Positions 11,074-25,404 of a stretch of DNA of 27,678 nucleotides are shown here, piece by piece (the first letter of the stretch is position 1; each line of letters begins with the position of its first letter). The notes beneath the pieces are model-generated. The model was given only the letters and a program-made list of their open reading frames with translations, was not told the DNA's origin and searched no databases. The stretch spans positions 1 through 27,678 of IMG/VR virus record IMGVR_UViG_3300048918_000581; one strand, written 5' to 3'. Both the position numbers and the translations under genes were made by a program. Origin of the DNA: a virus.

Positions 11074-12036
11074 TCAGCGCAGCGTGATTTTCCACTGGTC
11101 GTTGCCGTCGGTCGGCTGCGGCACGAAGGTCAGCGGCCACTCGACGATGCCCTGCTGGTTATCGATGCCGCTGGGCCGATTGAGCGTGCAGGCGAGCGCC
11201 TCAAAATCGACCTTCCGGCCAACGACTGTGCCGTGCTCGAGCGCGATCTCCATGCGCGGCTTCGGCGACTGCGACGCCTTCGCGTAGGGGTTGAACGTCG
11301 CCATCGGCACGGCCTCGATCGTCGCGGTGATGGTCTCACTGCGATCCACGATCAGGATGTGCTCGGCGCCGACCAGGAACCGGCCCTGGACGTCGTTGCC
11401 CAAATTCATCGCGAAGTTGCGCATCACGAAGGCGGTGCCGTCGATCGTGAACACCGGGGTGTTCGTCTTGGTCGCGACCTGCGGATCGACGAAGTTCGAC
11501 AGGTCGATGCCGGTCGGCTTGGCCTGGTCGCTTGGCAGCGTCCACAGGCCGGTCCAGGTGCCTTTGACCACCGGGATACCGTTGGCGTTGAAGCTGAGCT
11601 CAGCGGTGCCGACGCAGCCGAGCAGGACGTAGCGCGTCGGCCCGATCTGGACGTAGATCGCCGCGCTCTCGAAGTTCTCGCTGATCGGCGTGTACTCGAC
11701 GGTGCCGTCGCCGGGATCATCGTCGGGTGTGACGACTTCGGCTACCCCGAGCGACCGCATCAGCATACTCCAGGCCGGCGCCACGCCGGTCTCGCCGGAA
11801 CCGACGAGCTCGAATGACGCGGTCAGCACTGCGCGCAGGCCAGTCGCGAACATCTCCTGAGCGCCCATGTACGGCAGCTCGAGGTTACGGCTGACGTCCT
11901 CACCTTCCATCGGCTGCAGGCTGACGTCGGTAACCAGGACCGCGTTGGCGGCGGTGGGTGTCGGATCGACGCCGTAGGTGACTTCCTTCTTCACCAGGAA
12001 CGACTTCGACTTCCAGCGGATCGGAGTGAGGGCCAA
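11074..12036 (-). CDS. Major tail tube protein (siphoviral type), TTG start
   Basis: This 320-residue protein opens with LTPIRWKSKSFLVKKEVTYGVDPTPTAANAVLVTDVSLQPMEG, a pattern typical of phage tail tube proteins that form stacked rings of the non-contractile tube. The rest is beta-rich (AAIYVQIGPTRYVLLGCVGT, SETITATIEAVP). The start is TTG at 12036, directly after the upstream TAA. GGAGG lies five bases before it and no ATG or GTG is nearby, so the rare start is well supported. Mu has a sheath gene (L) at this point; here the tube protein stands alone, which is the main evidence for a siphoviral tail. Confidence 0.85.
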   Translation of the reverse strand: MALTPIRWKSKSFLVKKEVTYGVDPTPTAANAVLVTDVSLQPMEGEDVSRNLELPYMGAQEMFATGLRAVLTASFELVGSGETGVAPAWSMLMRSLGVAEVVTPDDDPGDGTVEYTPISENFESAAIYVQIGPTRYVLLGCVGTAELSFNANGIPVVKGTWTGLWTLPSDQAKPTGIDLSNFVDPQVATKTNTPVFTIDGTAFVMRNFAMNLGNDVQGRFLVGAEHILIVDRSETITATIEAVPMATFNPYAKASQSPKPRMEIALEHGTVVGRKVDFEALACTLNRPSGIDNQQGIVEWPLTFVPQPTDGNDQWKITLR

Positions 12037-14526: not shown

Positions 14527-14934
14527 TCAGAACTGGACCCAGACGCCGCCGGTGGCGGCGTCGATGCCACGGCAAATGCCGGCGACGGATCGGGTGGTGG
14601 AGCCATTGGTCTTGGCCACGGTCTGATCGTCCACGACGTAGACCTGCTTGCCGTATTCGGTCCAAGCGATCGCGTCGGTCGATGCGCTGTTGGCGAACAG
14701 AAACGTGCCGCGGCGGACGCTGATCGTGACCGAGCTGTCGGCGCCGGAGTTGACGACATGCTCCTCGGCCCGACCCGCCGCGAGAAGCGTGGTCGCGGTG
14801 GCACCGGGGACGGCGAGGCCGGAGGCGTTGAGGCAGACCAGGGCGCCGGCGAAGATCTCGGTCGAGCCCTTCATCGGCAGCTCGAGGATTTCGCCCTTTG
14901 CCTGGGCTGTGTTGCGGTCAGCGGTAAGAGCCAT
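14527..14934 (-). CDS. Capsid decoration-type protein between I and T
   Basis: This 135-residue protein is coupled to the protease gene by TGATG. It is a small beta-rich protein with a recurrent layout: LTADRNTAQAKGEILELPM, then IFAGALVCLNASGLAVPG, VTISVRRGTFLFANS, YGKQVYVVDDQTVAKTNG and a final GGVWVQF. Proteins of this form sit between the protease/scaffold and the major head gene in many siphoviral Mu-like phages and are thought to decorate or stabilise the shell. That role is inferred from location and composition. It has no signal peptide and no cysteine beyond two isolated ones. Confidence 0.78.
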   Translation of the reverse strand: MALTADRNTAQAKGEILELPMKGSTEIFAGALVCLNASGLAVPGATATTLLAAGRAEEHVVNSGADSSVTISVRRGTFLFANSASTDAIAWTEYGKQVYVVDDQTVAKTNGSTTRSVAGICRGIDAATGGVWVQF

Positions 14935-15527
14935 CAGAGCGCCTCCTGCTTGCCCGCGCCGGCGGCGAGGGCCTTTTTGTATTCCTCACGATCGAGGCCC
15001 ATCAGCGCGATGACCTGGTCATCGGCTTCGCCGAGATCGCCGGCATCACCGGTCTTCGGCTGCAGGCCGCTCATGCGGCTGCCCTGGAGGGCGGGGATCG
15101 CACCGATCAGTTGCTCGGCGCGCGCCGGGTTTTCCATGTGGAGCGCGATATATTCGTCGCGCATCGGCTTGACGCCGGGCTTGCCGGCCACGATCGCGCC
15201 ATCGACAAAGGCGATTGCCTTGTCGCGGGCGGTCCCGCTCTTGAGCGTGTCGAGCTCGGTCGAGAGCGTCGCCACCTTGCCCTGGAGCGAGGTGATCAGC
15301 GTATCGTCGGTCTGCCCGGCGGCGAGCGCCTGGACGCCGGCGAGCACGGCGGTCGCATCGGCACCGGCGTCGAGGCCGGCTGCGGTCGCGATCGAGCTCA
15401 TCGCCGACTGGAGCGCGGCCTGGTCGCCGCCACCCTTCAGCTTCTCAGCAAGCGCAGCGAGGATTGCCTCCTCGCTGGCGTCACTGGCGAGCCCGAGCAG
15501 CTCGCGCAGCTTCTCCATCAAATCCAT
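14934..15527 (-). CDS. Nested head scaffold protein (Mu gpZ-like), internal start in the protease gene
   Basis: The ATG at 15527 is codon 157 of the protease frame, and AGGAAGGA lies at 15537-15544, nine bases upstream. This is far stronger than the site for the full-length gene. The 197-residue product (MDLMEKLRELLGLASDASEE onward) is helical and charged, with a coiled-coil stretch around LQGKVATLSTELDTLKSG, typical of scaffolds. In Mu and lambda the scaffold is likewise made from an in-frame internal start of the protease gene. Existence is inferred from the signal and the precedent. Confidence 0.75.
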   Translation of the reverse strand: MDLMEKLRELLGLASDASEEAILAALAEKLKGGGDQAALQSAMSSIATAAGLDAGADATAVLAGVQALAAGQTDDTLITSLQGKVATLSTELDTLKSGTARDKAIAFVDGAIVAGKPGVKPMRDEYIALHMENPARAEQLIGAIPALQGSRMSGLQPKTGDAGDLGEADDQVIALMGLDREEYKKALAAGAGKQEAL

Positions 15528-15995
15528 GTTAGCGTGTCCTTCCTGGTGAAGTGAGGCCATCCCGATCAGGTTCGGGGTGTTGATGAGGCTGGCGCGAAGG
15601 ATGCGGCTCACGACGCCACCCTTGGTGTGGAGGATCGCCGGCGAGATCCCGCGATAGGCCTTGTCGGCGACCATCTGGCGGCCTTCGCGCGTCCATTCGA
15701 CGCGGCCCCAGATGCCGTCCGCGCGGCTCTGAAGTTCGACGATCCACCCGCGCGCCGGCGCCGACTGGCCCTTCGGCGCGGCGATATCGGTGGAGTGGTT
15801 CTCGTCCAGGACGAGCTTGCCGCCATTGGGCAGCGAGGCGGCCATCAGCGCCTTGGCGTCGCCGACACGATACGGGCCGCGGCCATCGTTCGTCCGGATC
15901 TCGCCCGCCGGCAGCAGCTGGATCCACTCCGGCGCGTCATCGCCTTCGACCGCGATCGCGTTTGCGGAGCAGAGGATGATTGCGGGCTTGGTCAT
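14934..15995 (-). CDS. Head maturation protease, Mu gpI-like (with C-terminal scaffold region)
   Basis: This 353-residue protein has the gpI-family protease in residues 1-150. Recognisable blocks are EWIQLLPAGEIRTNDGRGPY, LVLDENHSTDIAAPKGQ (His in a family-typical position), ARGWIVELQ, and YRGISPAILHTKGGVVSRIL with LINTPNLIGMASL. Residues of about 157-353 are the helical scaffold region and match a nested gene. The protease should cleave scaffold and head proteins during capsid maturation. The gene follows a 140-bp gap holding a conserved palindrome, where Mu has late promoter PI. The ATG at 15995 lacks a good ribosome-binding site. Confidence 0.9.
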   Translation of the reverse strand: MTKPAIILCSANAIAVEGDDAPEWIQLLPAGEIRTNDGRGPYRVGDAKALMAASLPNGGKLVLDENHSTDIAAPKGQSAPARGWIVELQSRADGIWGRVEWTREGRQMVADKAYRGISPAILHTKGGVVSRILRASLINTPNLIGMASLHQEGHANMDLMEKLRELLGLASDASEEAILAALAEKLKGGGDQAALQSAMSSIATAAGLDAGADATAVLAGVQALAAGQTDDTLITSLQGKVATLSTELDTLKSGTARDKAIAFVDGAIVAGKPGVKPMRDEYIALHMENPARAEQLIGAIPALQGSRMSGLQPKTGDAGDLGEADDQVIALMGLDREEYKKALAAGAGKQEAL

Positions 15996-16135
15996 GCCGA
16001 CCGTGATGCCCGCGGGTGCGTTGGGGAAACATGCCCGCCCCGGCGGGCAGCAAAGCGCGGATCAGGACTCGCGCCGCCATTTGTTGCCATCCTCGGCCGC
16101 CGAAATCAAACGGCCGATTTGGCAAAAGGTGCCGC
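15996..16135 (-). promoter_or_regulatory. Intergenic region upstream of gene I (candidate PI-type late promoter)
   Basis: This 140-bp gap lies between the G-like gene and gene I, in a phage whose genes otherwise overlap. It holds a 7-bp-stem hairpin (TCGGCCG/CGGCCGA, 16093-16117) about 19 bp after the G stop, the repeated palindrome at 16029-16050, and a small CCCGCGGG palindrome (16009-16016). No T-run follows either hairpin on the minus strand, so classical termination is not supported. Mu places late promoter PI here. I cannot identify a convincing -10 box by eye, as is usual for activator-dependent promoters in GC-rich DNA. Confidence 0.5.
16029..16050. promoter_or_regulatory. Palindrome copy 2 (candidate activator site before gene I)
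   Basis: TGCCCGCC and GGCGGGCA flank a two-base CC centre at 16032-16049. With flanks, 21 of 22 bases are identical to the copy at 25015-25036. Each half site is 8 bp, the symmetry expected for a dimeric activator such as the Mor/C family. It lies about 35 bp upstream of the gene I start codon. A hairpin or attenuator role remains possible. Confidence 0.55.
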
Positions 16136-16621
16136 TTAGTCGGCCAGCGCCAGATGCTCTTCGACGATATCGAGCATGTCGCGTTCGTCCTTGTCGGAGA
16201 GGCCCAGCCAGACGCGCGCGGGGATGAAGCCCCAGGGGATCGGCCTGCCGCGCGCGTCGTTGCCGAACTCGCCCTTGGCCGCGCCGGTCTGCATCGTGCC
16301 GGCATATTCTAGGTTGGAGCCGACCTCGACGCCGATGCTCGAGCTCGAATAGTTGATCTCATTGCCGAGGCGACGGGAAGGCCCGATCAGAGGCTGGGTA
16401 TACTCCCCATCCCCTGCGCGGCGGTAGCGCTCGATCGTCGCCGCCTTCTTCGGCGCCCAGGCGGTGCCGTCTGGTGCGCTGCCGGTCTTGAACCGTTCCT
16501 TGTGCGATCTAACCAGCTGTTCGCCCATCGCGTCGTAGACAGGCTTCATCTCGACGAGCTGGCCCTGAAGGCCGCGCAGCGCCTGGACGATCGGCTGGTT
16601 GTTGAAGACCTGCTTGAACAT
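16136..16621 (-). CDS. Virion morphogenesis protein, Mu gpG-like
   Basis: This 161-residue protein matches the phage virion morphogenesis family: QLVRSHKERFKTGSAPDGTAWAPKK with later LIGPSRRLGNEINYS, YAGTMQTGAAKGEFG and the C-terminal IPARVWLGLSDKDERDMLDI. In Mu, gpG follows gpF and acts in head-tail joining. A 64-bp gap precedes it, with GGGA upstream of the ATG. Length is normal. The next gene starts only after the 140-bp regulatory gap, so this is probably the last gene of its transcript block. Confidence 0.9.
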   Translation of the reverse strand: MFKQVFNNQPIVQALRGLQGQLVEMKPVYDAMGEQLVRSHKERFKTGSAPDGTAWAPKKAATIERYRRAGDGEYTQPLIGPSRRLGNEINYSSSSIGVEVGSNLEYAGTMQTGAAKGEFGNDARGRPIPWGFIPARVWLGLSDKDERDMLDIVEEHLALAD

Positions 16622-16685
16622 TGCTATTTTCCCGTTGCCTGGCCGCGTCCACCCGCGGGCGAATACCCCGAAAATGGAGACGCGG

Positions 16686-17939
16686 TCAGGATCTCTCCCC
16701 CGTCCGCACCAAGTAGCTCAGCAGCGTCATCGTCTTGCGGCGCTTCCAATATTCCCAGCGCGTCACATGGGTCTCGCCGTCGATCTCGGCGCGGATCTCG
16801 AACACGGGCACCTTGTGGCCTTCCGACACGCCGACATAGCGCGGCACACTGCCGAGCAGCTCGGGCAGCCTTGCGAAGTCGGCCGGCACGATCGCGCGTT
16901 GGCCGCGGCCGAGCTCGCCGGCCTGGTCGCCATGCGAGGAACGGATATGGGCGACCTCAGACGGCGACAACGAGAAGTCGAAGCCGGCCGCGTCGAGGTT
17001 GCGATCGGCGCCGATCGCCGCGACCTGGTCGGCGGTCAACAGGCCGAGCGTGCGCCCCGGATCGCCCGTCGGCCGCTCGTCCCACACGCGCTGGGCATAG
17101 CGACGGGCGTCATCGGCAACCGAGGGCAGCTCGCGATAGGCACTCGCCAGCGCGTCGCGCTGGGCCTCGGGCACTTCGTCCAGGAACGCCTTGCCGATGC
17201 GATAGTCCCAGCTGCCGATCTTCTCGGCCATCGCCCGCACGATCGGCGCCACGCTGGCGCCCGGCGCATAGCCCCAGCCTTTGCCGATGCCCGCCGGCGT
17301 GCCGGTCGCGGGCAAGATGATGTTCCAGCCCTCGGGCAGCTTCTTGCCCGGATCGCCGCCCAGGCGGATCGCGGCGCGCACGCTTCGCGCGCCGGAGACG
17401 TAGCAGGAGCAGCCCCAGGCGGAGGGCGGATAGTGGGTGATCCAGAACGGATGCGACGGCTCGAGCACGAGCCCATTCCACGACAGATGCTCGGGCCGCG
17501 GCTCCTTGGAGTTGCCGTGGAAATAGACCCAATAGGCGAAGCCGCCGGCGCTGAGTTGGGCGAAGCGACCCGCGGCGTAGCTGGTCGCTGCATTGGTTCG
17601 GTAGATGGTGCGCGTGCGCCAGGCGCGGCCCGCCTTGGTGTCCTCACCAGTCCAGCCATGCCAGCCATTGCGCTGGACAATATCGCGGAAGTCCTTGCGG
17701 AACGCGCCCAGACTCTTGCCCTCGGCGATCGCGCGATCGACGGCGACGGCGAGATCCTGGAGCAGATCCGCCTTCATCGCGCCGGCGACCATGAAGGCTT
17801 CGTCGTGCGCCTGGGGCTCGAGGTCGGTCCAGCGCCGCGTCGGTACCAGCTTGCCGAGCTTCCGGCGGAAGAACGCGATCTGCTCCGGGAACGGCTTCTG
17901 AAACGCCCCTGAGAGGGCGCTCGGATGCCGCTCAGGCAC
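16686..17939 (-). CDS. Mu F-like minor head protein with a C-terminal barnase/EndoU-type nuclease-like domain
   Basis: This 417-residue protein starts at GTG 17939, overlapping the portal gene by 8 bp. Residues 1-185 are the F/SPP1 gp7 head-morphogenesis region: helical start, RTRTIYRTNAATSYAAGRFA, and RPEHLSWNGLVLEPSHPFWI leading into HYPPSAWGCSCYVS. Residues of about 296-414 form a separate domain: VAHIRSSHGDQAGELGRGQR (His331, His336), FARLPELLGSVPRYVG, PVFEIRAEIDGETHVTRWEY and TLLSYLVRTG. That layout fits phage-associated barnase/EndoU/ColicinE5-D/RelE-like (PBECR) nuclease domains known as fusions to phage head proteins. The fold call is mine; activity is unproven. Confidence 0.85.
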   Translation of the reverse strand: MPERHPSALSGAFQKPFPEQIAFFRRKLGKLVPTRRWTDLEPQAHDEAFMVAGAMKADLLQDLAVAVDRAIAEGKSLGAFRKDFRDIVQRNGWHGWTGEDTKAGRAWRTRTIYRTNAATSYAAGRFAQLSAGGFAYWVYFHGNSKEPRPEHLSWNGLVLEPSHPFWITHYPPSAWGCSCYVSGARSVRAAIRLGGDPGKKLPEGWNIILPATGTPAGIGKGWGYAPGASVAPIVRAMAEKIGSWDYRIGKAFLDEVPEAQRDALASAYRELPSVADDARRYAQRVWDERPTGDPGRTLGLLTADQVAAIGADRNLDAAGFDFSLSPSEVAHIRSSHGDQAGELGRGQRAIVPADFARLPELLGSVPRYVGVSEGHKVPVFEIRAEIDGETHVTRWEYWKRRKTMTLLSYLVRTGERS

Positions 17940-19506
17940 TCTCCGCCTCCACGTCCGACATGCCCGCCGCGGCCGCCGCGACCAGGCCGGGCGCGATCAG
18001 CGCGCCAAGTTTGCTCGTATCGATATCGGGATACGCGGCGAAGAGCATCTCACGGAACTCATCAAGGTCCCTGGCCTTGTCGAGCATCGCCTCGATCGCC
18101 TCGGCCATCTTCGCGATCTCGGGCGCGGTTTCGGCGGCGAGCGTGTCGCCGATCGCGTCGGCCGGCAGGGCCGCGGGCTTCGGCTGCTGGCCGTGCAGCG
18201 AGGGCCGCAGCGACGGCGCCGGCGAGCCGATAGGCGGCATCTGAGGTGACATCGGAGCGTGCAGCAGCTCGGCGCCGGGGTCCGGATCGGAAATGCCGAG
18301 CTTGTCGCGGATCTCGCTCGCCTGCACCCGCAAGCCCATCGGGACCAGCTTCTCGATCGCCGAAATCAGCGGGTCGAGATCCTCCTGCTTCGGTCGCTCG
18401 ATCTTGATGCGCGGGTAGCGCCCGCCGGGCCCATATTCGAGATCCATCCACGGGCGGATGAGATCCCGGTTGAGCGCCGCCGCCAACGACTTGCAATCGG
18501 CCTTCTCGATATCGCCGGCGACACGGTCATGGACCTTGTTGCCACCGTCGCCCAGGCCGCCCGATTTCATGTCGGTGGTACCGGTCTGGCCAAGCACCGC
18601 CTTGGAGACTTGCCGATCGAGCCAGTCCGCCCGGCGCTCGTACAGGTCGGACCCGGCGCCGACGTTCGCCGACTCGATGAACTCGATCATCATCCCCTCG
18701 GGAACGATCGCCGCGCAATCGCCGGCGATGTTCGCCACCGCGCGGAACAGCGTGGCCTTGTCCTCCTTCGTCGCGCCTGGGTGGAACTTGCCGACGCGCA
18801 CGGGCTGGCCATAGGTCTGCGCGAAGATGGCCCAATCCCGCTGGGTGAAGGCCTTGAACATCCACGACCAGACCGCGAGCCGTGCAAGGCCGCCACGCAC
18901 CGGCAGGCCCGACTTCGCCTTCAGCGTGAGGCGGATGAACTTGTAGTCGGGCAGCGGCGAGTCGGGGCTGTTGCCGTCCTCGCCGCCGCGCAGCAGCGGC
19001 GTGCGGCCGTCGATGGGATCATAGGAGAACCAGCGCGGATCGCGCCATTCCAGCCGGGCCGGCATCCACTGACCGGAGCTGGTGTCCCACATGATCTCCG
19101 TGAAGCTGTCGCCCTTGCCGATCGCGTCGAGGATATCGATCGTCTCGTCGGCGAGCTCGTCGCGGCGCAGCCACTCGCGCACCATGTCGGCCTTCTGCAC
19201 GTCGAGCGGATCGTCGCTCGCCGCTTCCACGGTGACGTCGATCTGCGAGACCGAACGCTTCCGAGTGCCCAGAACGCCGGCATAGTGGAGGTCACGCTCT
19301 TCGATCAGCTCGGCGAGCTCGAAATAGCGCAGCGGGTTGCCCTGGTCGGCTTCGCGCAGAATATTGGCGAGCCGAACCGGGTTCAGGCCATCCGCGGGAT
19401 AGCCTGCGAACGGCGAACGGACGCCGGCAAGCGTCGCGCCCGCAACCTCCTGCTTCAGCACGTCCTTGCGCAGCGGCTGGCCGTGAAGATCGACCAATCC
19501 GGTCAT
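17932..19506 (-). CDS. Portal protein, DUF935 (Mu gp29-like)
   Basis: This 524-residue protein has the DUF935 pattern: GLNPVRLANILREADQGNPLRYFELAELIEERDLHYAGVLGTRKR, then DAIGKGDSFTEIMWD, RWFSYDP and GLARLAVWSWMFKAFTQRDWAIFAQTYG, with QTYGQPVRVGKF. It forms the dodecameric DNA channel at the capsid vertex and receives the terminase. Its ATG overlaps the stop of a 45-codon open frame (ATGA), and AAGGGA lies about ten bases upstream. The C terminus is long and proline/alanine-rich, then helical, as usual for the family. No damage is seen. Confidence 0.94.
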   Translation of the reverse strand: MTGLVDLHGQPLRKDVLKQEVAGATLAGVRSPFAGYPADGLNPVRLANILREADQGNPLRYFELAELIEERDLHYAGVLGTRKRSVSQIDVTVEAASDDPLDVQKADMVREWLRRDELADETIDILDAIGKGDSFTEIMWDTSSGQWMPARLEWRDPRWFSYDPIDGRTPLLRGGEDGNSPDSPLPDYKFIRLTLKAKSGLPVRGGLARLAVWSWMFKAFTQRDWAIFAQTYGQPVRVGKFHPGATKEDKATLFRAVANIAGDCAAIVPEGMMIEFIESANVGAGSDLYERRADWLDRQVSKAVLGQTGTTDMKSGGLGDGGNKVHDRVAGDIEKADCKSLAAALNRDLIRPWMDLEYGPGGRYPRIKIERPKQEDLDPLISAIEKLVPMGLRVQASEIRDKLGISDPDPGAELLHAPMSPQMPPIGSPAPSLRPSLHGQQPKPAALPADAIGDTLAAETAPEIAKMAEAIEAMLDKARDLDEFREMLFAAYPDIDTSKLGALIAPGLVAAAAAGMSDVEAESA

Positions 19507-19640
19507 GTCGTAGGTCCCTTTCGATCCAAATGCCCGATTAAGAGGGCTGAGAGGCCACTAAGAGGCCGGTTGGGGTCGTTCCGGCGGCCTCCGGAGCCCG
19601 AAGGCGTCCACGGGCCTCCAGCGCGGCTTTTCGGGCGCAT
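19503..19640 (-). CDS. Possible 45-residue gene filling the terminase-portal gap
   Basis: An open frame starts at ATG 19640, overlapping the terminase stop (TGATG), and ends in a TGA overlapping the portal ATG (ATGA). It therefore spans the 133-bp gap exactly, with the coupling style of this operon. The product is basic and proline/glycine-rich, ending LSALLIGHLDRKGPTT. The DNA here contains short repeated CCTCT(T/C)A motifs. It may be a translational bridge rather than a functional protein. I do not recognise it, and coding potential is uncertain for 45 codons. Confidence 0.4.
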   Translation of the reverse strand: MRPKSRAGGPWTPSGSGGRRNDPNRPLSGLSALLIGHLDRKGPTT

Positions 19641-21412
19641 CAAATCCCACCCCCGCGAAATCGCGATCCAAGCGGCGATCGCCACCAGTCGCCGCGGACG
19701 CCATCGCCATCGTCGGCATCGTCGAAACTGCCCGAGCCACCATGGATCGGCACCGCCTGATAGCCATAGGCCACCGCGTTCTGGCGCGAGGCGTACCAGG
19801 CGAGCATGCCGCCGATCGCCGTGTCGCCGTGTCGATCGAAACCGTCGCTCCCCTTGAAGCGGAAGCCGTCGGGAACCTTGATGATGCCGCCGACGAACGC
19901 GAGCGCCTGGTGGTCGAGCACCACGTCTGCGTCGGCCGCGATCTGGATCGTCGCGCCGCTAAAGGCATCGACATAGGGCACGGCATTCTGCCGGTACCAT
20001 TCCTGGCTGAGCTTCACTTGGCTAACGCGTTCCCCGAAGCCCGGCCGGAAGCTGCCCTTATCCGCGAAGCCGATCGCGCAGACCTCCGCGAGATAGGCGC
20101 CATTGCCGGTGGCATCGAAAGCGGCGTGCCCGAGCCGCGGCAGGCGCGACATGATGAAGAAGGCCACGTCCCGCTGGGTTTCGAACGGCACGTTGCGCAG
20201 CTCGAGGACGAGCTTTTGCCTGCGGACGAGATCCTGCCCCAACTCTGTGACGATCGGGCCGGACACGTCGCCCGATCGCGCGAAGTCCCAGCCCATGTCG
20301 TGCCGTAGCCGCTTGTCCATTCCGGCGAGCACCGGTTCGATCTTCTCGCGCAGGAACGCGTCGGTAAGCGCCTTGCGCGCCTCAGGCCCGAGCTCGGCAA
20401 AGTCGCTGCCAAGCGTCCAGCGGACCACTGCCACCGCCGGCGACGTCACCGACTCGATCAGGACCTGGCTGAGCGCCGTTCCCTCGGCATCGGCCGGGAT
20501 CGCGTCGAGCTCCTGCTGCATCTGCGCCTTGCGCAGACCATAGGCGCCGCGGATCTTGGCTTCCCATTCGCGTTCGGCCTCGGCCGAATATTCCATGCCG
20601 CGCAGCAGGCACACGCGCTTGAACAGGCCGTTGTCGATCGCGGCCTGGAACGGAATGAAGTGGAGGCTGAAGGGCACCTTGCCCGCCTTCGCCTCGTTGA
20701 TCAGCTCGTTGAACGGGTTGAGCTTGCCGTTGTGCGTGGAGATCACGCGGATGCGGCCGCCCCAGATCAGCAGCGCGTTGACGGCGTCCAGGACGGCGCG
20801 GACGTTCTGGTGGAACGCCGCCTCATCGATGCAGACGACACCCTGAAGGCCGCGGATATTCTCAGGCCGGCTCGAAAGAGCCTCCACGCGGTGGCCCGAC
20901 GCGAACTGGACGCGAAAGCCCGAGATGTACTTGGAGGTGCCGTCCTCCTTCTTGTCCTCGAACAGGAACTCCTCGATCGGGAGCAGCTGCTTGGCTACGA
21001 CCTTCGCGAAGTGAGCGACATAGCCGATGAACTCGCGGCCTTTGTCCTTGGTGTCGCCGATATAGAAGACGTTGTCGCCGCCGGCCGAGCGCGAAGCCGC
21101 CGCGATCAGCGTATCGTCCAGGGCCTCGGCATAGGTGATGCCGGTGCGGCGGCCCTTCTCCCCGAGCTTGAGCGCAGACTGATCCTCCAGCCACGCCTTC
21201 TGGTGGGCCATGAGGATGCCATCGGCGAGCGGATCGTGGTCGGCCGGAATCTCGGCGCCACGCGGGAGCTCGAGCGGCAGCTTGCTCGGGTCGCGCTCGA
21301 GCACCGGCGCGGCCGTGACCGTGGCAGCCGCGATCGCGACCGCTGCGACACCGCCGGCGATCGCCGACGCGACCTTGCGCGTCAGGCCGCTACTTTCAGG
21401 TGCGTCGGTCAT
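19640..21412 (-). CDS. Terminase large subunit, Mu gp28-like
   Basis: This 590-residue packaging motor with ATPase and nuclease halves has an adenosine-binding/Walker A-like region (HQKAWLEDQSALKLGEKGRRTGIT, ending near residue 93), Walker B GVVCIDEAAF (Asp196-Glu197) and coupling motif STHNG (225-229). The RNase H-like nuclease carries Asp376 (MGWDFARSGD), Asp433 (DATGNG) and Asp530 (RHGDTAIGG). It cuts and pumps phage DNA, in Mu together with short flanking host DNA. The ATG overlaps the preceding stop (ATGA). The N-terminal 55 residues are extra compared with the usual family start and contain a hydrophobic Ala/Val stretch (14-36). Confidence 0.95.
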   Translation of the reverse strand: MTDAPESSGLTRKVASAIAGGVAAVAIAAATVTAAPVLERDPSKLPLELPRGAEIPADHDPLADGILMAHQKAWLEDQSALKLGEKGRRTGITYAEALDDTLIAAASRSAGGDNVFYIGDTKDKGREFIGYVAHFAKVVAKQLLPIEEFLFEDKKEDGTSKYISGFRVQFASGHRVEALSSRPENIRGLQGVVCIDEAAFHQNVRAVLDAVNALLIWGGRIRVISTHNGKLNPFNELINEAKAGKVPFSLHFIPFQAAIDNGLFKRVCLLRGMEYSAEAEREWEAKIRGAYGLRKAQMQQELDAIPADAEGTALSQVLIESVTSPAVAVVRWTLGSDFAELGPEARKALTDAFLREKIEPVLAGMDKRLRHDMGWDFARSGDVSGPIVTELGQDLVRRQKLVLELRNVPFETQRDVAFFIMSRLPRLGHAAFDATGNGAYLAEVCAIGFADKGSFRPGFGERVSQVKLSQEWYRQNAVPYVDAFSGATIQIAADADVVLDHQALAFVGGIIKVPDGFRFKGSDGFDRHGDTAIGGMLAWYASRQNAVAYGYQAVPIHGGSGSFDDADDGDGVRGDWWRSPLGSRFRGGGI

Positions 21413-21678
21413 TCAGAGGGCTTTCTCGAAACGAGCCTGACAGTCGCCGAGCTGCTGGTCATCTTCCCCTTCTCGGAAAGTCGAAACTCTATCCGCCAGC
21501 CGTTTGCATAGTCCGCCCGCGCACGCCGCGGTCGGCCTTGGCGGTCGAACCAGCCGTCGACGGCGATAGGCGGCTGTCCATCACCACATGGGAAAATCTG
21601 CTCGAGCAGCGGGGCGACCTGCACGGGGTCGAGCCTTGCCCGACGATAGCCCGCGCGCTTGGTGCGGCGAGCTTTCAT
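21409..21678 (-). CDS. Unknown basic protein between small and large terminase genes
   Basis: This 89-residue protein overlaps both neighbours by ATGA. It has a strongly basic N terminus (KARRTKRAGYRRARLD), a DGWFDRQGRPRRARADY segment and a beta-like GWRIEFRLSEKGKM with SATVRLVS. Mu has no gene between gp27 (DUF3486) and gp28. Charge and position suggest nucleic-acid contact or help with packaging, but this is inference. I do not recognise a family, and there are no cysteine clusters or membrane segments. Confidence 0.72.
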   Translation of the reverse strand: MKARRTKRAGYRRARLDPVQVAPLLEQIFPCGDGQPPIAVDGWFDRQGRPRRARADYANGWRIEFRLSEKGKMTSSSATVRLVSRKPSE

Positions 21679-22274
21679 CCGACGCGAAGCCCCAGAACAT
21701 CCCGGCGGATCTGCGCGACCTGGTCGGCGCTGAGCCCCGCCTCGCGCATGACCTGCTCGGCTTCGCCAACCTTCTCAGCCGCCTTCTCGATCTGGGCGTT
21801 CATCCGCTGCTCGAGCGAAGCCCGATATGCAGCCGAGCCCTTCTGGGCGGCGACCAGCGAGCCGAGCGACCGCGACAGTTCGAGGATCTCTTTCGATTTG
21901 AGCTCGCCGCCTTCCACGCGCTCGTAGATCGACGCCTTCAGAATTTCGGCCACCGCGACCGTCACGTCATCCGCGTCGCCGGTACCAAGGCTCGAGACCA
22001 GGTCGTTCGTGATCGAGCGGACCTCGTCCAGGCGTCGGAACTGGATCGACTTGCGGACGGACCAGCGGGAGAAAGCGGACTTGCTTACGCGCTGCTCGAT
22101 CCCGCGCGAGGCGAGCCGCGCATTGAACTGATCCAGGATGAGGTTCTGCGGCATCGAACGCGCGCGCAGCTGCTCGAGCGCCCAGACGATGTCCTCTTCG
22201 GCGCTTTCCGGGAGCAGATCGAGCGTAGATAGCCGTCCGCGCCCCTCGCGGCGGTCCTGGGCGCCATCGGCCAT
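21675..22274 (-). CDS. DUF3486 protein (Mu gp27-like, probable terminase small subunit)
   Basis: This 199-residue protein starts at ATG 22274, four bases after the upstream stop; a longer frame extends to 22334 but would overlap that gene. The N-terminal half has the DUF3486 pattern: LSTLDLLPESAEEDIVWALEQLRARSM, then FNARLASRGIEQRVSKSAFSRWSVRK, a helix-turn-helix-like DNA-binding region. The C-terminal half is a long coiled coil ending AGLSADQVAQIRRDVLGL. In Mu-like phages this gene lies next to the large terminase and is taken to recognise the packaging site. It is separated from it here by one small gene. Confidence 0.88.
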   Translation of the reverse strand: MADGAQDRREGRGRLSTLDLLPESAEEDIVWALEQLRARSMPQNLILDQFNARLASRGIEQRVSKSAFSRWSVRKSIQFRRLDEVRSITNDLVSSLGTGDADDVTVAVAEILKASIYERVEGGELKSKEILELSRSLGSLVAAQKGSAAYRASLEQRMNAQIEKAAEKVGEAEQVMREAGLSADQVAQIRRDVLGLRVG

Positions 22275-22278
22275 TGGC

Positions 22279-22575
22279 TCAGTCCTCGTCCGAAGGGCGC
22301 GACACGCCCTCGATGATCTGGCGACGTTCGACATGATCGCGGCCGAGCTTGGTCATCGCGGCGACCATCACGGAACCGATCTCAGTGAGGTTGACGGCGC
22401 CGAGCTCGTCGAGCGCGCGCAGCTGGGTGCGGACCCAATCGCGCGAACGCTTCATGCCGAAGGCGTCGAGCACGTGCTGCAGGGTCGCGTCATTGAGGCG
22501 GCCATCGGTCTGGCGCGCGAGCTCCTTCAGGATGCACAGCCGCGCATCCCCGGCGAGCAGGTCGGAAAAGCTCAT
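22279..22575 (-). CDS. VpaChn25_0724-type winged-helix phage protein (Mu gp26-like)
   Basis: This 98-residue protein begins MSFSDLLAGDARLCILKELA, followed by LNDATLQHVLDAFGMKRSRDWVRTQLRALDELGAVNL and a final RRQIIEGVSRP. This is the standard pattern of the small winged-helix proteins placed before DUF3486 in Mu-like phages. It is coupled to the DUF2730 gene by ATGA. The fold suggests DNA binding or a regulatory role in late functions, but no experiment on this family is known to me. Length is typical. Confidence 0.85.
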   Translation of the reverse strand: MSFSDLLAGDARLCILKELARQTDGRLNDATLQHVLDAFGMKRSRDWVRTQLRALDELGAVNLTEIGSVMVAAMTKLGRDHVERRQIIEGVSRPSDED

Positions 22576-22898
22576 GCCTTCTCTCCCATGAGGTGCCGCT
22601 CGATCCGCTCGACCGCGCGCTCGAGCACGCCCATGTCACGTTCGATGCCGGAAAATCGGGCGATCACTTCGGTCAGCTTCTTGTCGAGCTCGTGCACCGT
22701 CTCCCTAGTGGGGAGGTGCTCGATCTTGTCTTCGACGCGCTGAATGCGACGATCATGCGCGTCCTGGCCGTCCTCGAGACGATCGAGGCGCGCAGCCTGT
22801 GCAGCTCCGCCCTTGCTCATCCAGGCCCAGACCGTGTTGGCGATGCCGAGCAGCAGCGACAGAGCGGTCAGCCCGGTAATCAACCACGTAAAGAACAT
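22572..22898 (-). CDS. DUF2730 membrane-anchored coiled-coil protein
   Basis: This 108-residue protein has one N-terminal transmembrane helix (FTWLITGLTALSLLLGIANT), a short WMSKGG linker and a long charged coiled coil (ARLDRLEDGQDAHDRRIQRV and onward, ending IERHLMGEKA). This is the DUF2730 layout, in the Mu block between the lysis genes and DUF3486. The ATG abuts the TAG of the DksA-like gene with no gap. It could act in the envelope at lysis, or scaffold the small regulators. The function is not established. Confidence 0.85.
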   Translation of the reverse strand: MFFTWLITGLTALSLLLGIANTVWAWMSKGGAAQAARLDRLEDGQDAHDRRIQRVEDKIEHLPTRETVHELDKKLTEVIARFSGIERDMGVLERAVERIERHLMGEKA

Positions 22899-23114
22899 CT
22901 ACTTCCCCCTACGCTCAAACAGGCCCTGGCAGCGGACGCACCGCACTGCCGAGGGCATCGCCTTGCGGCGCGCTTCGTCGATTTCTTCCCCGCAATCGCG
23001 GCACTCCTCGGCGCCCGGCTCGTCCAGGCGTGCCCGAATGCCGACAATCACGGCCTCGCGCTGCCGGTCGAGCAGAGCGACCTCCGCCTCAACGACGCGA
23101 TCGTCTTCATCCAT
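22899..23114 (-). CDS. DksA/TraR-type C4 zinc-finger protein
   Basis: This 71-residue protein has a helical N terminus with two adjacent acidic residues (DEDDRVVEAEVALLDRQ) and the zinc finger C38-RD-C41 ... C59-VR-C62, with ARRKAMPSAVRCVRCQ as the typical signature. TraR-like short proteins bind in the RNA polymerase secondary channel and mimic DksA plus ppGpp. The gene overlaps the membrane protein gene by 8 bp. Its place in the late operon suggests it retunes host transcription late in infection. Family assignment is secure; the effect is inferred. Confidence 0.92.
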   Translation of the reverse strand: MDEDDRVVEAEVALLDRQREAVIVGIRARLDEPGAEECRDCGEEIDEARRKAMPSAVRCVRCQGLFERRGK

Positions 23115-23322
23115 CGTCGTCGTCCACGTCGAAGCGCTCGCGGATCAGCGTGGCGAGCATCCAGCCGAGCACGCCCCACCACGCGAAGATCAGCACCCAG
23201 CCGAACCACCAGTGGCGGCCCGTGAACTTCCGCCAGGGGCGAAACCACGCGATGATGGCCGAGACGACCACCCATAAGGGCAGGAAGGCGAGCAGAAGGT
23301 ACCAGAGCCACTGAAGGATCAC
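23107..23322 (-). CDS. Small membrane protein of the lysis cassette (two helices, tryptophan-rich)
   Basis: This 71-residue protein begins at GTG 23322 (GTGA overlap with the outer spanin stop). Helix 1 spans about residues 3-27 (LQWLWYLLLAFLPLWVVVSA), a basic loop RPWRKFTGRHWW follows, and helix 2 spans about 38-60 (WVLIFAWWGVLGWMLATLI). The tail RERFDVDDDDG is acidic. Twelve tryptophans is unusually many for its size. Its site inside the lysis block suggests a second holin, an antiholin or a pinholin, but no family is recognised. Confidence 0.75.
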   Translation of the reverse strand: MILQWLWYLLLAFLPLWVVVSAIIAWFRPWRKFTGRHWWFGWVLIFAWWGVLGWMLATLIRERFDVDDDDG

Positions 23323-23732
23323 GGCGTCACCGCCATCTGCCCGGCCTTGATCAGCCCGGCCTTCACCTTGGCCGCCCAGTCTTCGACATAGACGACGCGG
23401 GTTTCGCACGAGGACCAGGCGCCGCGCGCCGGCCCGACGATGAACCGCGCGGTCTGCTCGTCGCGATCGAGCGCCACGTCATAGGAGACCAGCTCGGTAC
23501 CGGCCGCGAGGGTGCGGCCCGAGCCGTCCGCCAGCGTCACCTCCACGGGCGCCACCAGCGTGAACACGACGAACGGCGTCAGCTTCGGGAAAGCCGGGAA
23601 CGCGCGCTGGCAGCCGGTGAGCTGCGCCGGATCGGGCGTGAGCGCGGCGACGCGGACGGGCGCCCCCTTAGGGCTGCACGCCGTCGCCAGACAGAGCGTC
23701 GAGAGCGCTAGTACGCCTGCGATGCGCCGCAT
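23319..23732 (-). CDS. Outer spanin candidate (Rz1-like lipoprotein)
   Basis: This 137-residue protein has an N-terminal signal MRRIAGVLALSTLCLATAC-S with a probable lipidated Cys19; the lipobox has Ala at -3, which is allowed though not ideal. AGGAGA lies upstream of the ATG. It starts inside the inner spanin gene (65-bp overlap, different frame), the classic Rz/Rz1 arrangement. The mature part is beta-rich and longer than lambda Rz1, with two further cysteines (TGCQRAF and SSCETRV) that could form a disulfide. With the inner spanin it would fuse or disrupt the outer membrane in the last step of lysis. Confidence 0.75.
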   Translation of the reverse strand: MRRIAGVLALSTLCLATACSPKGAPVRVAALTPDPAQLTGCQRAFPAFPKLTPFVVFTLVAPVEVTLADGSGRTLAAGTELVSYDVALDRDEQTARFIVGPARGAWSSCETRVVYVEDWAAKVKAGLIKAGQMAVTP

Positions 23733-24018
23733 TGATCTTCTCCTCTTGGGCTTGGACCTGGTTTGCTTCGGCCGCGTCGCGCGCGGCCATGTTGGCGCCG
23801 GCCGATCGCTCGGCGCCGATGGTGGTGTTGAGGACCTTGACGTTGCTCTCGTCGCGATCGACGGCGACCACGGCCGTGTCGTGCCCGGACAGCCAGATGC
23901 GCCAGCCCAGGCGGCCGATGCCGACGATGGCGAGGATCAGCAGCGCCCAGGCGAGCGGGCGAGCCCAGCGCTGGGCCACGCCGCGGGCGAGCAGCCAGTT
24001 GGCGAAGGCGCCGATCAC
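23668..24018 (-). CDS. Inner spanin candidate (Rz-like)
   Basis: This 116-residue protein starts at GTG 24018, in GTGA overlap with the holin stop. It has one transmembrane helix (about 22-42, PLAWALLILAIVGIGRLGWR), then a periplasmic helical region (VAVDRDESNVKVLNTTIGAE through ANQVQAQEEKINAAHRRR). Topology and the overlap with a lipoprotein gene identify it as the inner-membrane spanin rather than sequence identity. Length is shorter than lambda Rz (153). It should act after endolysin has degraded the cell wall. Confidence 0.75.
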   Translation of the reverse strand: MIGAFANWLLARGVAQRWARPLAWALLILAIVGIGRLGWRIWLSGHDTAVVAVDRDESNVKVLNTTIGAERSAGANMAARDAAEANQVQAQEEKINAAHRRRTSALDALSGDGVQP

Positions 24019-24281
24019 TGGCCGCCTCCCGCTGTGGTTTCGAGCTGGACGCGGTCGGCGTGATTGCGCGCGTAGATCGCGGTGACGGTGGCGCCCAAAA
24101 CGCTGGCCCAGCCGAGACCGAACTTCACGCCATCGAATACGCCCGTCTTGGCGTAGTCTGCGATCGACAGGCCGAGGAAGGTGACGCCGCCCAGGAGGCA
24201 AAGCAGCCGGACGATGTCCAGATACTCGTTGCGCCCGCCGTACAGCAGATCCTTGAGCAGCTTTGCGAGCGCGGCGATCAC
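24015..24281 (-). CDS. Putative holin
   Basis: This 88-residue protein directly follows the endolysin (GTGA overlap, GTG start at 24281). It has an amphipathic N terminus (IAALAKLLKDLLYGGRNEYL), helix 1 (DIVRLLCLLGGVTFLGLSIADYA), a short loop and helix 2 (FGLGWASVLGATVTAIYARN), then a hydrophilic tail. Two helices with both ends likely cytoplasmic would fit a class II holin, which forms the hole that releases endolysin. The assignment rests on topology and location, since holins share little sequence. Confidence 0.78.
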   Translation of the reverse strand: MIAALAKLLKDLLYGGRNEYLDIVRLLCLLGGVTFLGLSIADYAKTGVFDGVKFGLGWASVLGATVTAIYARNHADRVQLETTAGGGQ

Positions 24282-24928
24282 TTGCCCAGCTCCGCAGCGC
24301 GTCGGAGCCAGCCCTTCAGGAAGCGCTGCTGGCTGGGATCGGCCGCGACGATCGCGCGGTAGCGATCAGCCGCCGCCTCGCGATACTCCTGAATCAGCAG
24401 CGACATCCCGCAGCCGGGCGCGGCCAGCACCAGGTCGCACAGCGCCCGCGTCGCCGGCCCGATCTGGCCGTCCACCAGTAGCGGCGCGGTATGCGCCGGT
24501 ACGCACGCGGAGGCGGCGTTGAGCGCGCGCTGGAGCAGCTTGCGTGCGGCAGTCAGGCCGCCATTGACGCCCTGGTCGAACATCGCCTCGCCTAGCGGCG
24601 CCGGCAGATCGTCGCAGCCCAGCCGCTTCCAGAAGCAACGATGGAAAAGCGAGAGCGCGTCATTCGGCTTCAGCGCCCGGATATCTGCGCCGTCGATATC
24701 GCCGTCCATGTCCAGGTCGAAGTCGGCGAAGCCGTCTCCGTCCAGATCAACCTTGCCCTCGGAAACGAGGAAGCGCAGCGACACGCCGTACTTCGTCTCG
24801 CCGCCGCGATCGCTAGGATCGTTGACGTGGCCACCCTCGATGCCGAGCACACGCCCGCCCGCAGCACGGAAACGCGGCGACCATGCCGCGACGACGATAT
24901 CGCTCTCGGTAGCTTCCACGATGCCCAC
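24278..24928 (-). CDS. Endolysin, GH108 muramidase with an EF-hand-like insertion
   Basis: This 216-residue enzyme carries the GH108 catalytic signature VLGIEGGHVNDPSDRGGETKYGVS, with Glu31 as the expected acid. Between the catalytic core blocks lies an acidic insertion (61-83) with two Ca-loop-like segments; the second, DLDMDGDIDGAD, has D at loop positions 1, 3, 5 and 12 and Gly at 6. The C-terminal part (DGQIGPATRALCD) is a peptidoglycan-binding module. It has no signal peptide, so release needs the holin. The start is GTG 24928, or possibly GTG 24919, for which GGGGTGG would be the ribosome site. Confidence 0.92.
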   Translation of the reverse strand: MGIVEATESDIVVAAWSPRFRAAGGRVLGIEGGHVNDPSDRGGETKYGVSLRFLVSEGKVDLDGDGFADFDLDMDGDIDGADIRALKPNDALSLFHRCFWKRLGCDDLPAPLGEAMFDQGVNGGLTAARKLLQRALNAASACVPAHTAPLLVDGQIGPATRALCDLVLAAPGCGMSLLIQEYREAAADRYRAIVAADPSQQRFLKGWLRRAAELGK

Positions 24929-24945
24929 CCCAAATGAAGGTGGGC
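24923..24945 (-). promoter_or_regulatory. Hairpin covering the endolysin start codon
   Basis: In the transcript GCCCACC pairs perfectly with GGTGGGC across a nine-base loop, and the GTG at 24928-24926 lies in the 3-prime arm. It would restrict initiation at that GTG and perhaps favour the GTG at 24919. No T-run follows, so it is not a terminator. It is seen in sequence; a regulatory role is inference. Confidence 0.45.
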
Positions 24946-25038
24946 GAGGCAGCTCAACCCCTACGTCGCTACCCCGCCCGGAGATTGGACAGTGCGCGCG
25001 GGAACCATCTGATCACATGCCCGCCGCGGCGGGCAGGA
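24946..25038 (-). promoter_or_regulatory. Candidate Plys-type late promoter region
   Basis: The 110-bp gap between mor and the endolysin is the second clear non-coding gap inside the phage. It begins, three bases after the mor stop, with the palindrome at 25015-25036. In Mu, Plys lies here and needs the C activator. I see no consensus -10 or -35 elements, as expected for an activated promoter. Confidence 0.5.
25015..25036. promoter_or_regulatory. Palindrome copy 1 (candidate activator site before the endolysin)
   Basis: TGCCCGCC and GGCGGGCA flank a two-base GC centre at 25018-25035, giving a perfect 18-bp palindrome. With flanks, 21 of 22 bases match the copy at 16029-16050. It could fold as a hairpin in RNA, but the following bases (ATGTGATCAG on the minus strand) have no T-run. 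Mu positions and the nearby mor gene favour an activator-binding role. Confidence 0.55.
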
Positions 25039-25404
25039 TCAGTTATCGAAGAGGGAAAGTTGGTTGGCGCTGCCCTTGGCGGGCGCGTCCGGTCGGCGAA
25101 GGAACAGCTTGTCCACGCCGCTTTCGGTGATGCCCAGCTTGCGCGCGATCTCGGCGTTGCTGAGTCCCTGGCCGCGATAATGCAGGGCGCGTTGCTCGCG
25201 TGCAAGGGGCACGCGCAGCACGGCAGGCGCGAAGCGGCGCGACAGGCGCAGCGCGCGGACCAGGCCGACCGCCTTGGCGATCTCATGATCCTCGTCCACC
25301 TTGTGAGGAACGTACAGGCGCGTGCCCCCGAACGCCTGGGTCAGCCCGACGAAGCCATCTTCGCCGAGCATCGCCAGAAGTTCGCCCGAGAGCTCGCCTG
25401 CCAT
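25039..25404 (-). CDS. Mor/C-family late transcription activator
   Basis: This 121-residue protein has the Mor-type opening GLTQAFGGTRLYVPHKVDEDHEIAKAVG, in which GGTRLYVP is the family mark of the dimerisation domain. A helix-turn-helix follows at about 78-101 (GQGLSNAEIARKLGITESGVDKLF). It lies between the gp16 block and the lysis genes, as Mor and C do in Mu, where they bind near -35 and recruit RNA polymerase. Only one activator gene is seen, so it may serve late promoters directly. The last residues include QLSLF (115-119), identical to the consensus beta-clamp-binding peptide. Confidence 0.9.
   Translation of the reverse strand: MAGELSGELLAMLGEDGFVGLTQAFGGTRLYVPHKVDEDHEIAKAVGLVRALRLSRRFAPAVLRVPLAREQRALHYRGQGLSNAEIARKLGITESGVDKLFLRRPDAPAKGSANQLSLFDN

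Follow-up and report, generated by a model that had tools for sequence, protein, structure and literature searches.

In phage Mu, the promoter Pm has, in place of a -35 element, a 16-bp dyad centred at -43.5 to which the Mor protein binds, and the C protein binds related dyads in the promoters Plys, PI, PP and Pmom (PMC4390567, PMC4287176). Mor and C are not interchangeable (PMC4390567, PMC4287176), and a T stretch lies in the spacer of the Mu lys and mom promoters (PMC4461284). As far as the literature we searched shows, late-gene control in transposable phages has been worked out only for Mu. RNA-Seq of Fc02, a relative of phage B3, has revealed three late gene clusters, the first of which begins at the holin-endolysin genes (PMC9936078). 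The present study concerns the virus record IMGVR_UViG_3300048918_000581, a Mu-like phage whose entire 27,678 bp we call the window, and in particular two nearly identical 22-bp palindromes that precede its endolysin gene, lys, and its head maturation protease gene, I. Comparison with related phages makes it very probable that two late promoters, Plys and PI, depend on an activator that binds these palindromes as its operators, and that this activator is the Mor-family protein of the phage. Our literature search turned up no account of operators like these in the phages concerned.

The palindromes lie at 16029-16050, before gene I, and at 25015-25036, between mor and lys, and share 21 of 22 bases, exactly as the first-pass annotation of this DNA had reported. 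On the plus strand they read ACATGCCCGCCCCGGCGGGCAG and ACATGCCCGCCGCGGCGGGCAG, respectively, and their cores have the form TGCCCGCC-NN-GGCGGGCA. Their neighbours are also as described there, and the two sites fall in the non-coding gaps between G and I (15996-16135) and between mor and lys (24929-25038), the latter palindrome directly after the mor stop codon. Read on the minus strand, the predicted late operator of gene I, OI (16029-16050), has the 16-bp core GCCCGC-CGGG-GCGGGC at 16033-16048, and the predicted late operator of lys, Olys (25015-25036), has the core GCCCGC-CGCG-GCGGGC at 25019-25034. The window holds no other exact copy, and with up to three mismatches it yields four matches, compared with 1.05 expected. 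When the 81 bp around the first copy served as query, the second copy was recovered at an E value of 2.3e-5.

One line of evidence is the matching of the two sites inside each phage. Relatives of I and mor were gathered from viral contigs and GTDB genomes, which gave 114 loci with both genes and 70 after Mor proteins at least 90% identical had been dropped. For each phage, we took the best 22-mer match between the gap 3' of mor and the gap 5' of I, with no palindrome criterion, and scored it over 18 positions, the central four being ignored. The two gaps, which lie where the first-pass annotation had proposed to look in relatives, match at 15/18 or better in 58 of 70 phages, compared with 19% of cross-phage pairs, a figure inflated because related phages share operator types, and 1.3% of shuffles. 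At least 17/18 positions agree in 39 of 70 phages, as against 3% of cross-phage pairs and 0.1% of shuffles, and after thinning to Mor identity below 55%, 25 of 26 clean pairs hold. The arms that match within a phage are of many types, such as GCCCGC, GGCCGC, GGCCTC, GGCGAC, CCGCAA and CCGCAC, and further GGTGAC, CCGAAA, CCGGAA, CCTATC, CTACAC and others. Rhizobium phage RR1-B obeys the pairing rule with an identical pair (18/18), and Rhodobacter phage RC1 obeys it at 15/18. The blind matched-pair test gave nothing convincing for D3112 and Mu, and third operator copies (at P, at mom or upstream of mor) amounted among 59 loci to three extras, all weak. One locus, L057, breaks the pairing rule, with the palindrome TGCCATCG...CGATGGCA in the mor gap on the lys side and TGCCCGCC...GCGGGCA on the I side.

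A second line of evidence is the spacing between the palindromes and a promoter-like element downstream. For spacing counts 59 clean pairs were centred on the dyad; the centres were optimised on palindrome score, which favours symmetric arms and cannot create a downstream -10 signal. Both copies show a -10-like hexamer at a fixed +33 to +38 from the palindrome centre. An A stands at +34 in 45/59 lys copies and 53/59 I copies, and a T at +38 in 41/59 and 40/59, respectively; we read these bases as A-11 and T-7 of a probable -10 hexamer. Both bases are found in 38/59 copies of each set, whereas other offsets have the two in 2-3%; no hexamer signal appears on the mirror side, upstream of the palindromes. 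The I copies also carry a G at +31 in 51/59 phages, and about 51/59 phages have the start codon of I at +45 or +46. Because a start 7 bases past the hexamer meets the I start codon, the I mRNA is predicted to be leaderless or nearly so, and should be leaderless in the window. In the lys copies the hexamer keeps its position though the next gene begins further off, which points to a constraint on promoter geometry rather than on the mRNA leader. Counted from the -10 position, the operator centre would be at about -44.5, which is close to the arrangement looked for, namely a dyad near -43.5 with a -10 and without a good -35. On the minus strand of the window, the -10-like hexamer of the predicted PI is CATCAC at 16003-16008 and that of the predicted Plys is CACTGT at 24989-24994, both at +33 to +38 from the centre. 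The predicted transcription start of PI is 15995-15996, from the -10 position together with the place of the I start codon in the relatives, the ATG of gene I being at 15995; that of Plys, from the -10 position, is 24982. No sigma-70 consensus promoter was found in either window gap.

The sites also change together with the protein that would read them. Operator distance correlates with the distance between Mor recognition helices (r 0.72); controlling for I-protein distance leaves a partial Mantel correlation of 0.72, and controlling for the N-terminal domain of Mor leaves one of 0.54 (permutation p 0.001), while the correlation of the operator with the N-terminal domain given the helix is weaker, 0.26. 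Within the GCCCGC/GGCCGC class, 49 of 50 rows obey one rule: where residue 98 is D, E, G or T, operator position 7 is C:G, and where it is N or A, that position is G:C. When the helix columns were excluded from tree building, the tree showed six changes of the operator base, only three of these contrasts being on well-supported branches; in these three independent pairs residue 98 almost always shifts the same way and never the opposite way. Across the 59 related phages, then, the palindromes and the presumed DNA-reading helix of the activator appear to change together, in a lock-and-key manner. Within-phage pairing, a hexamer at a fixed offset without a mirror signal, and co-variation with the recognition helix all favour the late-operator reading that the first-pass annotation had offered. 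The same co-variation speaks for its candidate activator, the product of the nearby mor-family gene.

That protein, of 121 aa, is encoded at 25039-25404 on the minus strand and matches PHROG 836, "late transcriptional activator", at an E value of 6.4e-17. Its AlphaFold2 (AF2) model (pLDDT 84) has helices at residues 69-78, 83-90 and 94-102 and contains a C-terminal helix-turn-helix (HTH) with the recognition helix ITESGVDKLF at residues 92-101. The best Foldseek neighbour is the NarL HTH (0.8 A over 33 columns, the E value not significant), and no Mor entry is present among the Foldseek and PDB sequence matches listed. The Pfam Mor profile (PF08765) matches 12 of 13 aligned members (best 1.5e-6), and formal membership of the window protein in that family is partly shown only. 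Several results weigh against our interpretation of the protein and its sites. PF08765 does not reach the window protein itself at E 0.1, hhalign of the activator alignment with Mu C alone does not recover Mu C (probability 3%), and Foldseek recovers neither Mor nor C for the window protein. Furthermore, 11 of 70 phages have no clean pair, the distance from the centre to the -10 is about 2 bp longer than in Mu Pm, the -10 consensus taken for the hosts is an assumption, and the independent-pair test alone, with three well-supported pairs, is not significant (median p 0.25).

From the sequence comparisons we infer the binding, activation, start sites and timing of the following mechanism. As gene order suggests, the Mor-family protein would be made from the last gene of the early operon, and a dimer of it would bind each palindrome via the C-terminal HTH. 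The operator would act as a 6+4+6-bp dyad whose centre lies some 44-45 bp upstream of the start, standing in for a good -35, OI being one such predicted dimer site with its centre at about -44.5. The bound protein may then assist host RNA polymerase at the weak -10 hexamers, CACTGT for lys and CATCAC for I, and transcription of I would begin at the ATG or one base earlier, so that its mRNA would be leaderless. One Mor-family protein could thus serve both late operons in one step, by which the lysis and head genes would be switched on late in infection.

GC-rich hairpins in such gaps could be regarded simply as intrinsic terminators, at which the early (mor) transcript and the lys-G transcript stop and which have no role in initiation. 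One site does come right after mor, the stems are GC-rich, some relatives show UUCG or GNRA-like loops with CATATTTTTT tails that look like textbook terminators, and terminators are predicted in the corresponding gaps of the Mu record. However, no terminator is called at either window site, TTTT is found within +7 to +20 in just 14/59 lys and 18/59 I copies, and terminators would leave the fixed-offset -10 hexamer, the within-phage pairing of the arms and the co-variation with the Mor helix unexplained. We consider this explanation extremely improbable, and the attenuator alternative that the first-pass annotation had raised is weakened, the T-run being usually absent. Also dropped was an RNA hairpin, whether a terminator or a 5' untranslated region element, suggested by UUCG/GAUA loops with ATATTTTT tails, since most phages lack the T-run and the -10 offset is fixed. 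A dual element would add to the operator reading instead of replacing it. The palindrome would be an operator and, in those phages where a T-run follows it, would in addition terminate or attenuate transcription from upstream, which may include transcription from a promoter-like site, TTGAYY-N17-CAWCAN, in the G-I gap of some phages. The T-run occurs in both copies in 11 phages, in neither in 39 and in one of the two in 9, and it tends to go with the upstream promoter-like site (6/10 vs 1/15 phages), an association that ignores kinship. At Mu Pm a predicted terminator hairpin also overlaps the Mor site: in the Mu record (L250) the TransTermHP call at 180-201 overlaps this Mor-dependent promoter, the hairpin call coinciding with the activator site. 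The window itself, however, is without a T-run, and we regard the dual element as a rather unlikely addition.

The palindromes might instead serve as operators for a different DNA-binding protein, of the phage or of the host, such as a repressor that silences the late genes, since pairing shows that a site is matched inside each phage but does not show what binds it. Against this, the arms follow the recognition helix of Mor more closely than they follow either its N-terminal domain or the I protein, a single residue of the helix varies with a single operator base, a centre at about -44.5 fits an activator better than a repressor, and there is the precedent of Mu. Such a binder therefore appears highly improbable. 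GC-rich palindromes are, in general, common as host repeats, and a REP-like repeat could have landed twice in the phage. The first-pass annotation had held that a palindrome common across the host genome at gene 3' ends would speak against an operator. In three host genomes of relatives (4.4-4.5 Mb), GCCCGCNNNNGCGGGC has a near-background 5, 7 and 13 copies, as against 3-6 for the reversed control, and two of the matches in each genome are the prophage's own sites. Dozens of phages, moreover, fill the same two gaps with different sequences, and the chance that the palindromes are a host repeat is practically negligible.

The operator reading extends beyond close relatives of the window. Pseudomonas aeruginosa phage B3 (L254), one of the beetreviruses, has three TTTTCG-N6-CGAAAA palindromes, at 11566, 19835 and 26818, which precede the holin, I and tape-measure genes and are followed by -10-like hexamers. 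The I start of B3 seems to be annotated too far upstream, the likely ATG being at about +44 from the palindrome centre. Unlike the window, B3 has mor at the left end and not beside lys, three sites rather than two, and the hexamer 2 bp closer. In CF78a, Ps60 and Rashabar (L256-L258), all three sites differ from those of B3 and the Mor recognition helix differs along with them, while the holin and I promoters retain their -10 hexamers; these phages have less symmetric sites, whose definition is tentative. The suggestion that the palindrome is a late operator thus gains support, while its restriction to one undescribed phage group does not stand, as 59 Mu-like phages share the layout and B3 has it too, at a slightly different spacing.

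The genes of the window lie on the minus strand in the transcription order MuB-like, DnaA-C-like, mor-family, lys, packaging and head genes, G and I. The lys gene (24278-24928) encodes a GH108 endolysin (PF05838, E 1.4e-19) and would head the predicted lys late operon, and gene I (14934-15995), for a Mu-like head maturation protease (PF10123, E 2.2e-52), would head the predicted I late operon. The last gene before the PI gap is a homologue of the virion morphogenesis gene G (16136-16621; PF05069, E 5.8e-26). Between MuB and the mor region sits a phage gene (26624-27067, minus strand) that matches the C-terminal DNA-binding domain of DnaA only (Bac_DnaA_C, E 7e-15). A second hairpin, GCCCACC...GGTGGGC at 24923-24945 (minus strand), spans the lys GTG start at 24928, which is followed by an in-frame GTG at 24919; this hairpin could mask the lys start within the mRNA. 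Upstream of the I operator, a promoter-like TTGATT-N17-CAACAA is found at 16081-16109 on the minus strand. Among 25 phages of the GCCCGC/GGCCGC type, 11 carry TTGAYY at positions -63 to -70 relative to the operator centre, and 19 carry TTGA within 122 bp upstream of the I operator, as against 24% of shuffled sequences.

We lean towards a broader proposal, in which the Mu-like phages of Alphaproteobacteria, together with B3-like phages, share a one-step late switch whose activator and operators have co-diversified many times into orthogonal pairs. Their code would be readable, residue 98 (D/E/G/T or N/A) setting operator position 7 (C:G or G:C) in the GCCCGC type, and some lineages would have a second promoter before I that is independent of the activator and for which the operator also acts as an attenuator. 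The layout described here offers a testable promoter arrangement for dozens of uncharacterised Mu-like phages, with start sites and leaderless I mRNAs predicted to within a base or two, and the natural series of activator-operator pairs may allow the DNA-recognition rule of the Mor/C family to be read. It also indicates that what looks like a terminator hairpin in one of these gaps can be an operator, and that automated annotation may mislabel such sites.

The sites are best read as a late promoter system of the Mu Mor/C kind that works in one step through a single activator, with activators and operators that diversify together as pairs; it can be compared with both Pm and the late promoters of Mu. 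As in Mu Pm, a Mor-family activator would act at a 16-bp inverted-repeat dimer site that replaces the -35, with mor directly upstream of the site. In contrast to Pm, however, the repeats here are GC-rich, of 6 bp with a 4-bp spacer rather than 5 bp with a 6-bp spacer, and the downstream genes are lys and the head genes, not C. Mu employs a cascade from Mor to C to the late genes, whereas here each of 173 loci has one Mor-family gene and no second Mor/C-family gene, so that a two-tier arrangement was not found. The Mu promoters PP and Pmom have no counterpart, giving two sites instead of four; the lys and I promoters of Mu have only a 10-bp match in common, compared with 21/22 here; and Mu I has an annotated ribosome-binding site, unlike the leaderless I predicted here. 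Nevertheless, the same two genes as in the C-activated Plys and PI of Mu would be controlled, from the same two gaps, and by this analogy the system probably works like a Mu late promoter.

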